Positions 20,240-63,002 of a DNA stretch of 64,000 bases are shown piece after piece; position 1 is the first letter of the stretch; every line of letters starts with the position of its first letter. Location: positions 310,001-374,000 of the forward strand of contig NZ_PVZV01000003.1 of the NCBI RefSeq assembly GCF_002995495.1, in the 5' to 3' direction. This DNA is from Actinocorallia populi. GTDB taxonomy: Bacteria; Actinomycetota; Actinomycetes; Streptosporangiales; Streptosporangiaceae. Position numbers and translations under genes: made by a program. The notes under the pieces are model-generated. The model was not told the DNA's origin, made no database searches, and saw only the letters and a program-made list of their open reading frames with translations.

Positions 20240-22195
20240 TCAGACCTGGATCCGGTCCTCGACCGCCTTCACGATCTCGGCCACCGCCTCGTCCACCGGC
20301 ACGCCGTTGTTCTGCTCGCCGGAGCGGTAGCGGAACGACACCGCGCCCTTGGACACGTCGTCGTCGCCCGCCAGCAGCATGAAGGGGACCTTCTGCTTCT
20401 GGGCGTTGCGGATCTTCTTCTGCATGCGGTCGGACGAGGAGTCCACCTCCACCCGGATGCCGCGGGCGCGCAGCTTCGCCGCGATCTCCTCCAGGTAGGG
20501 CGCGTGCTCGTCGGCGATCGGGATGCCCACGACCTGGACCGGGGCCAGCCACGGCGGCATCGCGCCGGCGTAGTGCTCCAGCAGGACGCCGAAGAACCGC
20601 TCGATCGAACCGAACAGCGCCCGGTGGATCATGATGGGCCGCTGCCGGGTGCCGTCCGCCGCCTGGTACTCCAGGTTGAACAGCTTCGGCAGCTGGAGGT
20701 CCACCTGGATGGTGGACATCTGCCAGGTGCGGCCGATCGCGTCGCGGGCCTGGACGGAGATCTTCGGACCGTAGAAGGCGGCGCCCTCCGGGTCGGGGGT
20801 GAGCTCGAGTCCGGAGTTCTCGGCGGCCACCCGCAGCATCTCGGTGGCCTCCTCCCACTCCTCGTCGGAGCCGACGGACTTCTTCGGGTCCCGGGTGGAC
20901 AGCTCCAGGTAGAAGTCGTCCAGGCCGTAGTCGCGCAGCAGGTCCAGCACGAACTTCAGCAGCGAGTGCAACTCGTCCTGCATCTGCTCGCGGGTGCAGT
21001 AGATGTGCGCGTCGTCCTGGGTCAGGCCCCGCACCCGGGTGAGGCCGTGCACGACGCCGGACTTCTCGTACCGGTAGACGGTGCCGAACTCGAACAGCCG
21101 CAGCGGCAGCTCCTTGTAGGAGCGGCCCCGGGCGTCGAAGATCAGGTTGTGCATGGGGCAGTTCATGGGCTTGAGGAAGTACTGCGCCCCCTCCAGCTCC
21201 ATGGGCGGGAACATGCCGTCGCGGTACCAGCCGAGGTGCCCGGAGATCTCGTACAGGTGGCCCTTGGTGATGTGCGGGGTGTTGACGAAGGAGTACCCCG
21301 CCTGCTCGTGCCGCAGCCGCGAGTAGTTCTCCAGCTCGCGCCGGATGATGCCGCCCTTGGGGTGGAACACCGGCAGGCCGGAGCCGATCTCGGTCGGGAA
21401 GGAGAAGAGGTCGAGCTCGGCGCCGAGCTTGCGGTGGTCGCGCTTCTCGGCCTCCTCCAGCATCTTGAGGTACTCGTCCTGCTTCTCGCGGGACTCCCAC
21501 GCGGTGCCGTAGATGCGCTGCAGCTGCGGGTTCTTCTCGCTGCCGCGCCAGTACGCGCCGCCGGAGCGCATGAGCTTGAACGCCGGGATGTTGCGGGTGG
21601 TGGGCAGGTGCGGGCCGCGGCAGAGGTCCTTCCAGCACAGCTCGCCGGTCTTGGCGTTGAGGTTGTCGTAGATGGTCAGCTCTGCGCCGCCCACCTCCAC
21701 CGACTCCTCGTCCTCCGCGCCGCCCTTGAGGCCGATCAGCTCGAGCTTGTAGGGCTCGGCGGACAGCTCCTCGCGGGCCTCCTCGTCGGAGACGACCCGG
21801 CGGGAGAAGCGCTGGCCCTGCTTGACGAGCTCGCGCATGCGCTTCTCGATGCGCTTGAGGTCCTCGGGGGTGAACGGCTCCTTGACGTCGAAGTCGTAGT
21901 AGAAGCCGTTCTCGACCGGCGGTCCGATGCCGAGCTTGGCCTCGGGGAAGATCTCCTGGACGGCCTGGGCCATCACGTGCGCGGTGGAGTGGCGCAGGAT
22001 GTCGCGGCCGTCCTTGGAGTCGATCTCGACGCCCTCGAGGACGTCCCCGTCCCGCACGACGTACTCCAGGTCGCGCAGCTCACCGCCGACCCGGGCCGCG
22101 ACGATCCGGGGACCTCCGTCCAGCACCTGCCCCGCCGTGGTGCCGGCGTCCACCACTCGCTCGCTTCCGCCGAGGGTGACGCGCAGTTCGGACAC
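20240..22195 (-). CDS. thrS: Threonyl-tRNA synthetase
   Basis: A 651-aa class II synthetase charging tRNA-Thr. It has an N-terminal TGS domain (1-60), the editing domain with [11 protein letters not shown], the catalytic core with [10 protein letters not shown] (zinc cysteine), motif 2 around [15 protein letters not shown], and an anticodon-binding C-terminus. GTG at 22195 with AAGGAG 5 nt upstream. Expression is probably controlled by the upstream leader peptide and hairpins at 22235-22355. The place next to the PIM operon matches mycobacteria. Confidence 0.96.
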
Positions 22196-22234
22196 GGGAA
22201 CTCCTTGAATCGTGGGATCGATCGGATGATCACA

Positions 22235-22266
22235 AAGGGCCCTGGGAGAGTTCTCCCAGGGCCCTT
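22235..22266 (-). terminator. Attenuator hairpin in the thrS leader
   Basis: A 15-bp GC-rich inverted repeat (22235-22249 with 22252-22266) between the leader peptide and thrS, followed on the minus strand by three T residues. Its upstream arm and loop contain GGGAGAAC, exactly complementary to GTTCTCCC inside the leader peptide gene. The two pairings exclude each other, as expected for a terminator/antiterminator switch. Confidence 0.65.
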
Positions 22267-22295
22267 CGCATGTCGCAGATGGTCAGCGCGCGTGC

Positions 22296-22355
22296 TCAGA
22301 CGGCCGGGGAGAACCCCGGCGTGGTCGTCTCGCGGATCGCGCAATCGGCTGCCAT
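22296..22355 (-). CDS. Putative thrS leader peptide, 19 aa with three consecutive Thr codons
   Basis: The peptide MAADCAIRETTTPGFSPAV is encoded from ATG 22355 to TGA 22296 and includes ACG-ACC-ACG for Thr-Thr-Thr. The ATG lies 6 nt after a TACACT -10 box, so the transcript would be nearly leaderless. The Thr codons sit just before a hairpin whose 3' half can pair with the attenuator. This is what ribosome-mediated threonine attenuation of thrS would need. It is inferred and not demonstrated; the peptide would have no function besides regulation. Confidence 0.6.
   Translation of the reverse strand: MAADCAIRETTTPGFSPAV
22303..22320 (-). promoter_or_regulatory. Protector hairpin inside the leader peptide gene
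   Basis: GCCGGGG-AGAA-CCCCGGC (plus strand) forms a 7-bp stem with a 4-nt loop immediately after the Thr codons. A ribosome waiting at those codons would cover its 5' arm, freeing the 3' arm to pair with the attenuator. Confidence 0.5.
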
Positions 22356-22361
22356 GCCCAC

Positions 22362-22391
22362 AGTGTAACCCGATCTCGTCTCCCGTCTCAT
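22362..22391 (-). promoter_or_regulatory. Probable promoter of the thrS leader transcript
   Basis: On the minus strand ATGAGA (22391-22386) and TACACT (22367-22362) are 18 nt apart. The -35 overlaps the end of the rhodanese gene. The predicted start of transcription is at or next to the leader-peptide ATG. Confidence 0.5.
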
Positions 22392-22798
22392 CCGGAAGCG
22401 GGCCTCGCCCCTCCGGTGCAGGGCAGTCCCGCCGCCTTCCACGCCCGGAACCCGCCGTCGACGTCGGTGGCCCGGGACAGGCCGAGGTCCTGCAGGGCGG
22501 CGGCCGCGAGGCTGGAGGTGTAGCCCTCGGAGCAGAAGACGACCACCCTGACGCCGTAGCCGGCGGCCTCGGGCAGCCGCGCGTCGCTCTGCGGGTCGAA
22601 CCGCCATTCCAGGTGGTTGCGCTCGACGATCAGCGCGCCCTCGATCTCGCCCTCCTCCGCGCGCTGCGCGGCGGGCCGGATGTCGACGAGCAGGGCGTCC
22701 GGCGCGGCGTGCGCCTCGGCGGGCGTGAGCCGGGCCAGGCGGGAGCGCGCCTCGGCCAGGATCTCGTCGATGGACCTGGCCCCCGGCGGCCGGTTCAC
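22388..22798 (-). CDS. Rhodanese-like sulfurtransferase
   Basis: A single rhodanese domain of about 136 aa. The active-site cysteine is in VVFCSEGYTSSLAAAAL, and ALLVDIRPAAQRAEEGEIEGAL forms the characteristic N-terminal part. It probably moves sulfane sulfur between thiol acceptors. The GTG at 22798 overlaps the cysteine dioxygenase stop (GTGA), so the two are co-expressed. Pairing with cysteine dioxygenase is a known arrangement in thiol and sulfur oxidation. Confidence 0.88.
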   Translation of the reverse strand: MNRPPGARSIDEILAEARSRLARLTPAEAHAAPDALLVDIRPAAQRAEEGEIEGALIVERNHLEWRFDPQSDARLPEAAGYGVRVVVFCSEGYTSSLAAAALQDLGLSRATDVDGGFRAWKAAGLPCTGGARPASG

Positions 22799-23250
22799 CA
22801 CTCCTCCGCCGACTCGGACCGCAGGGTGACCAGTTCGCCGTTCTCATCCAGGTCGTAGCGGTTCATCCGGGACAGCGGCGGCGCGTAGACGTGGACGCTC
22901 ACCGCGGGCGCGCCGGAGACGTTGCGGACGTCGTGGACGTGGTGCCCGCCGAACCCGCGGACCTGGCCGCCCTCCAGGGTGCGGGCGGCGCCGGGGACCG
23001 CCTCCTCCAGCTCGCCCAGCACGACGGCGAACGCGCCGGCCGAGCCGCCGTGGTCGTGGAAGCCGGTGCTCTGGCCCGGCAGCCAGCTGATGATCCACAC
23101 CTCGTGGTCGGCGTCGGCGTGCAGTCTCTCGTACCAGCGGCCCTGGGGGTCCAGGCGGACCCGGTGCAGCCACTCGGCGCTGTCCTCGGCGAGGGAGCGC
23201 GCTCGCGCGCTGAGCGCGCGCGTCCCGGTGTCGGTCGCGGTCACGGTCAT
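22795..23250 (-). CDS. Cysteine dioxygenase (cupin)
   Basis: About 151 aa, of the bacterial CDO type I family, oxidising cysteine to cysteine sulfinate with a ferrous iron held by three histidines. Visible are GFHDHGGSAGAF (two His) and GHHVHDVRN (third His). The ATG at 23250 begins MTVTATDTG; in-frame alternatives at 23259 and 23271 exist. The promoter region overlaps a palindrome (23272-23292) that recurs before the sulfatase gene, suggesting control by sulfur supply. Confidence 0.88.
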   Translation of the reverse strand: MTVTATDTGTRALSARARSLAEDSAEWLHRVRLDPQGRWYERLHADADHEVWIISWLPGQSTGFHDHGGSAGAFAVVLGELEEAVPGAARTLEGGQVRGFGGHHVHDVRNVSGAPAVSVHVYAPPLSRMNRYDLDENGELVTLRSESAEEW

Positions 23251-58067: not shown

Positions 58068-58139
58068 TGGGCGATACTGGGTTCGAACCAGTGACCTCTT
58101 CGGTGTGAACGAAGCGCTCTCCCACTGAGCTAATCGCCC
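58068..58139 (-). tRNA. tRNA-Val (CAC)
   Basis: 72-nt cloverleaf starting GGGCGATTAGCTCAG with a perfect 7-bp acceptor stem. The anticodon loop is TTCACAC (anticodon CAC) and the T-arm CTGGTTCGAACCCAG. CCA is encoded directly after the discriminator base (58067-58065). A near-copy with anticodon GAC lies at 62931. Confidence 0.97.
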
Positions 58140-62751: not shown

Positions 62752-62823
62752 GCGGAAGTGGCTCAGTGGTAGAGCATCACCTTGCCAAGGTGAGGGTCGC
62801 GGGTTCGAATCCCGTCTTCCGCT
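62752..62823 (+). tRNA. tRNA-Gly (GCC)
   Basis: 72 nt, acceptor GCGGAAG with CTTCCGC, anticodon loop TTGCCAA (anticodon GCC), T-arm GGGTTCGAATCCC. CCA is not encoded. Confidence 0.97.
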
Positions 62824-62848
62824 CGGAGCGGTCGCGAGACCGAACCAC

Positions 62849-62919
62849 GGTGGAGTGGCCGAGAGGCGAGGCAACGGCCTGCAAAGCCGTGTACACGGGT
62901 TCAAATCCCGTCTCCACCT
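62849..62919 (+). tRNA. tRNA-Cys (GCA)
   Basis: 71 nt, acceptor GGTGGAG with CTCCACC, anticodon loop CTGCAAA (anticodon GCA), T-arm GGGTTCAAATCCC. CCA is not encoded. Confidence 0.96.
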
Positions 62920-62930
62920 CGCAGCATCCC

Positions 62931-63002
62931 GGACGATTAGCTCAGCGGGAGAGCGCTTCCCTGACACGGAAGAGGTCACTGGTTCAATCCCAGTATCGTC
63001 CA
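62931..63002 (+). tRNA. tRNA-Val (GAC)
   Basis: 72 nt, acceptor GGACGAT with ATCGTCC, anticodon loop CTGACAC (anticodon GAC), T-arm TGGTTCAATCCCA. Very similar to the tRNA-Val(CAC) at 58068. CCA is not encoded. Confidence 0.97.

Follow-up and report, generated by a model that had tools for sequence, protein, structure and literature searches.

In the thr operon of E. coli and Salmonella an attenuator (Rfam Thr_leader) lets the ribosome sense Thr codons, and the logic of a stalled ribosome acting on alternative hairpins is classical, having been established for trp. The T-box of Firmicutes couples charged tRNA to the expression of synthetase genes by direct binding of the tRNA, with no leader peptide. 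For the actinobacteria, a survey reported that no RNA structure was conserved at the upstream side of threonine operons, and the word thrS is absent from it (PMC1262725). The closest described system is thrL of Streptomyces lividans TK24, with the peptide MKRVRPFLETTPGFVPAR, which was reported as leaderless from RNA-seq and as lying before a threonine-tRNA ligase gene called thrS (PMC8079986).

In the initial annotation of the locus described here, an attenuator was taken as not known for thrS in this group of bacteria. That statement holds in part: thrL had already been published (PMC8079986), and thrS attenuation in our sequence is therefore not wholly new; the thrL peptide, however, was found to precede a paralogue, ThrS2, in the two genomes where we located it.

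Organisation of the leader upstream of thrS

The window, that is, the whole stretch of 64,000 nucleotides of Actinocorallia populi that was analysed, carries on its minus strand a gene for a threonine--tRNA ligase of 651 aa (thrS, 20240..22195, GTG start at 22195). Its identity is secure (TIGR00418 profile search, 659.7 bits against a cut-off of 383.65) and was also recognised by Pfam. The features that follow are all on the same strand. The Shine-Dalgarno sequence of thrS, AAGGAG, was read at 22201..22206. Further upstream lies a putatively leaderless ORF of 19 codons, MAADCAIRETTTPGFSPAV (22296..22355, stop TGA at 22298-22296), whose ATG at 22355 is separated by a 6 nt spacer, GTGGGC, from a -10 box TACACT (22362..22367); a weak putative -35 hexamer, ATGAGA (22386..22391), was read by eye 18 nt 5' of this box. 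Codons 10-12 of the ORF are ACG-ACC-ACG (22328-22320), the candidate regulatory Thr codons, which are kept in relatives. Thr codons in 36 ORFs of the window, chosen by codon-position GC, were 68% ACC and 30% ACG; the leaders prefer ACG.

The final base of the third Thr codon is the first base of a predicted 7 bp hairpin, 1:2 (GCCGGGG/CCCCGGC, loop TTCT, 22320-22303). Within it lies segment 2, GTTCTCCC (22314-22307), the putative first half of an antiterminator, and the stop codon of the leader is found 4 nt past the hairpin and 8 nt past this segment. A second predicted hairpin, 3:4, is GC-rich, terminator-like and 17 bp long (22269-22232), and contains segment 3, GGGAGAAC (22257-22250), the putative other half. 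GTTCTCCC is exactly complementary to GGGAGAAC, giving a 10-bp helix if one G.U is allowed, and because the two can pair, hairpins 1:2 and 3:4 would be mutually exclusive. The TTTGT behind GGGCCC is paired with GCGAA, so that no free U run follows hairpin 3:4. The initial annotation had described much the same arrangement: a 19-codon leader of thrS with ACG-ACC-ACG and its ATG 6 nt past TACACT, a 7-bp hairpin after the Thr codons, and an exact complementarity between two hairpins that makes the folds exclusive. These sequence elements were all seen again, and the terminator hairpin that it had placed next was also present, with 17 bp in our fold instead of the 15 bp proposed.

The leader region folded with -77.7 kcal/mol (z -7.1), a value equalled by none of 200 shuffled sequences. 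The window was also scanned with a pattern made of TANNNT, 6 or 7 nucleotides, ATG or GTG, a short ORF with three identical consecutive residues and a stem of 12 bp or more; it matched at the thrS leader only, and a control set of 100 third-order Markov sequences of equal length gave no match. A strict consensus scan of positions 21800-22800 returned no sigma-70-type promoter and no T-run terminator. When the entire window was compared with Rfam at gathering scores, neither a leader family nor a T-box was returned; the only matches were four tRNA genes (RF00005), three of them clustered, at 58068-58139 and 62752-63002.

Conservation and covariation at the thrS loci

All 100 genomes searched of the GTDB family of A. 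populi contained thrS. Of 70 thrS upstream regions read in this family, 16, the window included, had a Thr leader. Its residues were TTTPG in 15 of these regions and TRTPG in the remaining one, and behind every leader came a CCGGG/CCCGG hairpin and then a longer one rich in GC. The leader was present in all three genomes examined of the genus, which NCBI places in the Thermomonosporaceae; one of them matches Actinocorallia sp. API 0066 (L207) across the first 100 nt of the leader. When one genome per species was scanned with a pattern, over 84,980 species, 72 loci matched and 60 of them preceded thrS, in Actinomadura, Actinoallomurus, Actinocorallia, Spirillospora, Thermomonospora and four MAGs. 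Eleven of the 72 had no thrS within 2.6 kb, and at one more (L188) the contig ends 268 nt past the match. A match in Streptomyces cellulosae resembled a second Thr leader and was rejected, as another gene lies downstream.

After removal of duplicates, 66 leaders before thrS were retained (63 distinct over the aligned stretch); in those found by the pattern only, the conservation of ACG, CCGGG, CCGG and GGGAG is imposed by the search. All 66 had a TANNNT box 6 or 7 nt upstream of an in-frame start codon, ATG or GTG (43 at 6, 22 at 7, and L169, which fits 6 as well as 9), and the distance from the start to the Thr codons varied from 6 to 20 codons. The fixed spacing between box and start is strong sequence evidence for a leaderless leader. 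The first and third Thr codons were ACG in 66/66 leaders, the third being fixed by the hairpin and the first not, and they were also ACG in the 16 leaders that had been obtained independently of the pattern scan. The initial annotation had named the loss of these codons in close relatives as an argument against itself; they were conserved across genera of the NCBI Thermomonosporaceae.

A covariance model, R1, was built from the 66 leaders. The window, which is in the training set, scored 56.7 bits (E 5.1e-9). At least 90 of 341 genomes of the family had a match with E of 1.1e-10 or lower, including 65/65 of genus g37, and in a search of the whole class the best matches outside the family had E of 2.3e-7 or worse. 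Eighty-five thrS upstream regions were also drawn class-wide, 77 from outside the family, including 12 from a family taken for Streptomyces (f16); none of the 85 had a box-spaced leaderless short ORF bearing TT or TxT. One region of another family (L130, f34) had a short TTT ORF, MRRPQFAATTTGCLQPRTT, with no box-spaced start, about 150-90 nt before the ThrS match, which is possibly an unrelated Thr leader.

The terminator 3:4 was paired in 92% of the cells, against 44-62% in slid controls, and 9/16 of its pairs were changed on both sides, in 92 such cells, a result that none of 500 shuffles reached. Hairpin 1:2 had an invariant 6-bp core in the 66 leaders (imposed by the pattern for the pattern-only loci) and, being invariant, it is silent on covariation. 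The putative antiterminator helix 2:3 was paired in 88.9% of the cells, against 31-71% when slid; among the relatives no cell was changed on both sides, and cognate duplexes (-14.46 kcal/mol) were not stronger than non-cognate ones (-14.67 kcal/mol). In many species the core of this pairing is only CCCGG/CCGGG. The terminator and the loop of the window both differ from the sequence of the relatives, and among 256 tetraloops only two, its TTCT included, reach so strong a pairing with the terminator of the window (-18.0 kcal/mol). We read these data as supporting the pairing 2:3 in the window and as silent elsewhere. The initial annotation had called for compensating changes in both pairings; they were found for the terminator, and pairing 2:3 was kept with no covariation. 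Other antiterminator pairings, such as CCGC located 5' of the terminator with the outer GCGG arm, were considered by eye on alignment A1 and dropped, being present in part of the sequences only.

The stretch between the leader terminator and thrS contained an ATG preceded by a Shine-Dalgarno sequence in 46/60 thrS loci (L164, L171, L219 and others). In 43 of the 46 it shared the reading frame of thrS with no stop in between (78 to 123 nt), and it looks like the start of an N-terminal extension of ThrS; the other three were in another frame, which stops at the thrS start. A TCGNTANCAT box was found inside this stretch in 53/60 loci. Read in frame it gives the codons ATA and GCA, which are rare in such genomes, and the box looks like a second thrS promoter downstream of the attenuator. 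In the window, the sequence read between the leader terminator and thrS contained no TA-box.

Leaders of the paralogue ThrS2 and a possible second tier of pairing

A search for the thrL core across 392 genomes of genus g83, presumably Streptomyces, gave two matches, both with the whole peptide. The next gene at both encodes a ThrS paralogue of about 417 aa, here named ThrS2, with the catalytic and anticodon domains and no tRNA_SAD. R1, which was not trained on leaders of ThrS2, matched directly upstream of ThrS2 in 46 of the 59 weaker matches listed for the family (E 1.3e-8 to 1.8e-5), and ThrS2 followed 7 of the 10 best class-wide matches other than thrS leaders. A leaderless leader, mostly M[KQ]RA..TTTPE[ST]VPAR, was present in 80/84 ThrS2 loci (L238, L239, L241-L244, L247-L304, L305-L324); nine of the 84 had been chosen via a leader search (three of these duplicate other rows), and among the other 75 it was present in 71. 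At the four loci lacking it, the N-terminal stretch was long, the contig was cut or a box-spaced start was absent. In L288 and L303 the leader frame shifts past the hairpin and VPAR is replaced by an Actinomadura-like ending, PRR or SRR, with the RNA unchanged; because of this, what is conserved would seem to be the RNA and the Thr codons.

ThrS2 was detected in 124/338 genomes of the family (E <1e-140) and in none of the genera with a leader before thrS, save for a partial match in G445, and therefore the two arrangements were mutually exclusive among the genomes sampled. The partial match (G445:C3:12913-13677; 70% identity over query 162-415) comes from a g37 genome with a leader before thrS and is possibly a relic of the paralogue.

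A segment past the ThrS2 terminator, CACTCGCCC in most loci, is complementary to the 5' arm and loop of the terminator (GGGCGAGTG; alignment A2, e.g. L251, L298, L320) and also to the Shine-Dalgarno region (GCGAGGAGACC). The helices with the 5' arm and with the Shine-Dalgarno region, which were drawn from the very sequences tested, had 25 and 33 cells changed on both sides, respectively (0/500 shuffles each), and pairing was seen in 91.3% and 82.5% of the cells (slid controls, 36-62% and 36-50%). Counted by pairs changed on both sides, the helices were not above shuffled alignments, 183 and 41 of 500 reaching the observed number. Over 75 distinct loci, three of them ill-fitting, the 5'-arm helix had -18.83 kcal/mol for cognate, -17.47 for non-cognate and -14.11 for shuffled duplexes, and the Shine-Dalgarno helix -17.53, -15.98 and -11.75 kcal/mol. 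This suggests that a second tier may mask the ribosome site on ThrS2 messages that escape termination.

At the thrS loci of Thermomonosporaceae, 46/60 of which could be evaluated, the 5'-arm helix (-18.10 kcal/mol) was clearly stronger than shuffled duplexes (-13.60) and barely stronger than non-cognate ones (-17.48), and the Shine-Dalgarno helix was weak (cognate -14.51, non-cognate -14.04, shuffled -12.44). The two-tier form was not detected in the window, where 173/500 and 416/500 shuffles were as strong as its own duplexes.

Taken together, the loci may represent one widespread actinomycete threonine switch whose target changes between two threonyl-tRNA synthetases, two-tiered at ThrS2 and present in a reduced form at thrS in the window, a reading that we would accept about as readily as reject. 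The switch would guard the short ThrS2, which is without the editing-type domain, in Streptomyces, in families f4, f15, f17 and f32 of the same class and in many genera of Streptosporangiaceae. It would act there both by termination and by the segment past the terminator, which would leave the Shine-Dalgarno sequence free when paired with the 5' arm of the terminator and would otherwise pair with the Shine-Dalgarno sequence itself, silencing messages that had escaped termination. In Thermomonosporaceae, where ThrS2 is missing, the switch would stand before the housekeeping thrS and its Shine-Dalgarno half would be weak.

Proposed threonine response and comparison with known attenuators

At the thrS locus of the window there is a short ORF rich in Thr codons before the gene of the same amino acid, and between them a terminator hairpin that is present and covaries, though its U run is poor; the putative antiterminator pairing 2:3 is perfect in the window and its core is kept in relatives without covariation. 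We consider it highly likely, judging from the sequence, that the leader is leaderless and controls thrS by ribosome-mediated transcription attenuation in response to charged tRNA-Thr. The initial annotation had proposed such an attenuator, and the Thr codons, the promoter-to-start spacing, the first hairpin and the terminator, all kept across relatives, argue in its favour. From the sequence, folds, conservation, promoter-to-start spacing and terminator covariation that were observed, we infer a leaderless start in A. populi, termination, antitermination and a response to threonine.

Transcription would begin at or beside the leader ATG, and a ribosome would load on the leaderless message. 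With ample Thr-tRNA it would reach the stop codon, and segment 2 would be covered or held in hairpin 1:2; with segment 2 unavailable, hairpin 3:4 would form and most polymerases would stop. At low levels of charged tRNA-Thr, the ribosome would pause on ACG-ACC-ACG, covering segment 1, which is the 5' arm of hairpin 1:2; segment 2 would then pair with segment 3, the terminator would be blocked and thrS transcribed. The outcome would very probably be that more threonyl-tRNA synthetase is made when charged threonine tRNA is low.

The Thr-Thr-Thr-Pro block is kept in nearly all leaders, and it could be thought that they sense slow translation, or a nascent-chain or antibiotic stall at TTTP, and not the supply of threonine. 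WblC-activated genes are reported to include thrS2 of S. coelicolor (PMC7157823), and GAAAWY, given as the WblC box in that study, occurred near the expected place in 23/80 ThrS2 promoters, against 3/1083 background slots. At the expected place in the thrS leader promoters, however, it was found in 0/66. The residues past TTTP vary (PG, PE, PD, PR), some species have another reading frame past the hairpin with the RNA retained, and the confirmed loci have a threonyl-tRNA synthetase gene as their target, all of which makes a stall of this kind improbable as the signal.

Smaller still is the probability that hairpin 3:4 merely terminates an upstream rhodanese-like ORF (22388-22801) and that the small ORF is spurious. 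The hairpin does lie downstream of this ORF on the same strand, and the stop codon of the ORF overlaps the -35 region, but in dozens of species the leader, the hairpin and the terminator are found as a set upstream of thrS, and elsewhere upstream of ThrS2; a screen for T-run hairpins in 70 regions of the family, which missed the window, found them at 7/16 leader loci and at only 1/54 others (L010, 8 bp). The threonyl-tRNA synthetase of E. coli has been mentioned as autoregulated (PMC2965389), and repression of thrS by its own product bound to the leader, as at the E. coli thrS operator, was the least probable explanation of those weighed, given that conservation falls on a coding ORF with Thr codons and on a terminator distant from the start codon.

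The class that we define here as the actinomycete thrL element has S. lividans thrL as its published member, and the window shows its features: a TTP core, a CCGG/CCGG hairpin at the last Thr codon, a probable leaderless start, a GC-rich terminator and a threonyl-tRNA synthetase gene next. A covariance model now exists for this element, which precedes either the housekeeping or the spare synthetase in the family examined, no genome having been found with a full set of both. Why one lineage attenuates the housekeeping ThrS, and whether termination and masking of the ribosome site are coupled in one leader, are questions that these loci raise. In producers of ThrRS inhibitors the leader would be a plausible sensing circuit. 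Among the open-access literature matches listed, none described a thrS attenuator beyond S. lividans thrL or a ThrS2 leader, and the sole paper listed with both Actinomadura and attenuator concerns cinnamycin.

The locus differs from the T-box, which has no leader peptide, and resembles it in the proposed control of a synthetase gene by charged tRNA. The thr attenuator of E. coli and Salmonella governs another gene, has mixed Thr and Ile codons and is not leaderless. With the actinobacterial trp, leuS and trpS attenuators (PMC1262725), the window has in common a leader ORF with regulatory codons, predicted alternative hairpins and a terminator-like hairpin before the gene. S. lividans thrL is the nearest relative, sharing a leaderless Thr leader, the core ETT(T)PGF.PA, a CCGGG/CCCGG hairpin behind the Thr codons and then a GC-rich hairpin; its authors noted a single hairpin, without a U run (PMC8079986). 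The thrL peptide in two genomes precedes ThrS2 and not the housekeeping thrS, and the ThrS2 version adds the Shine-Dalgarno switch. Threonine attenuation of a threonyl-tRNA synthetase gene would be a conserved actinomycete element and not the peculiarity of one Streptomyces strain.
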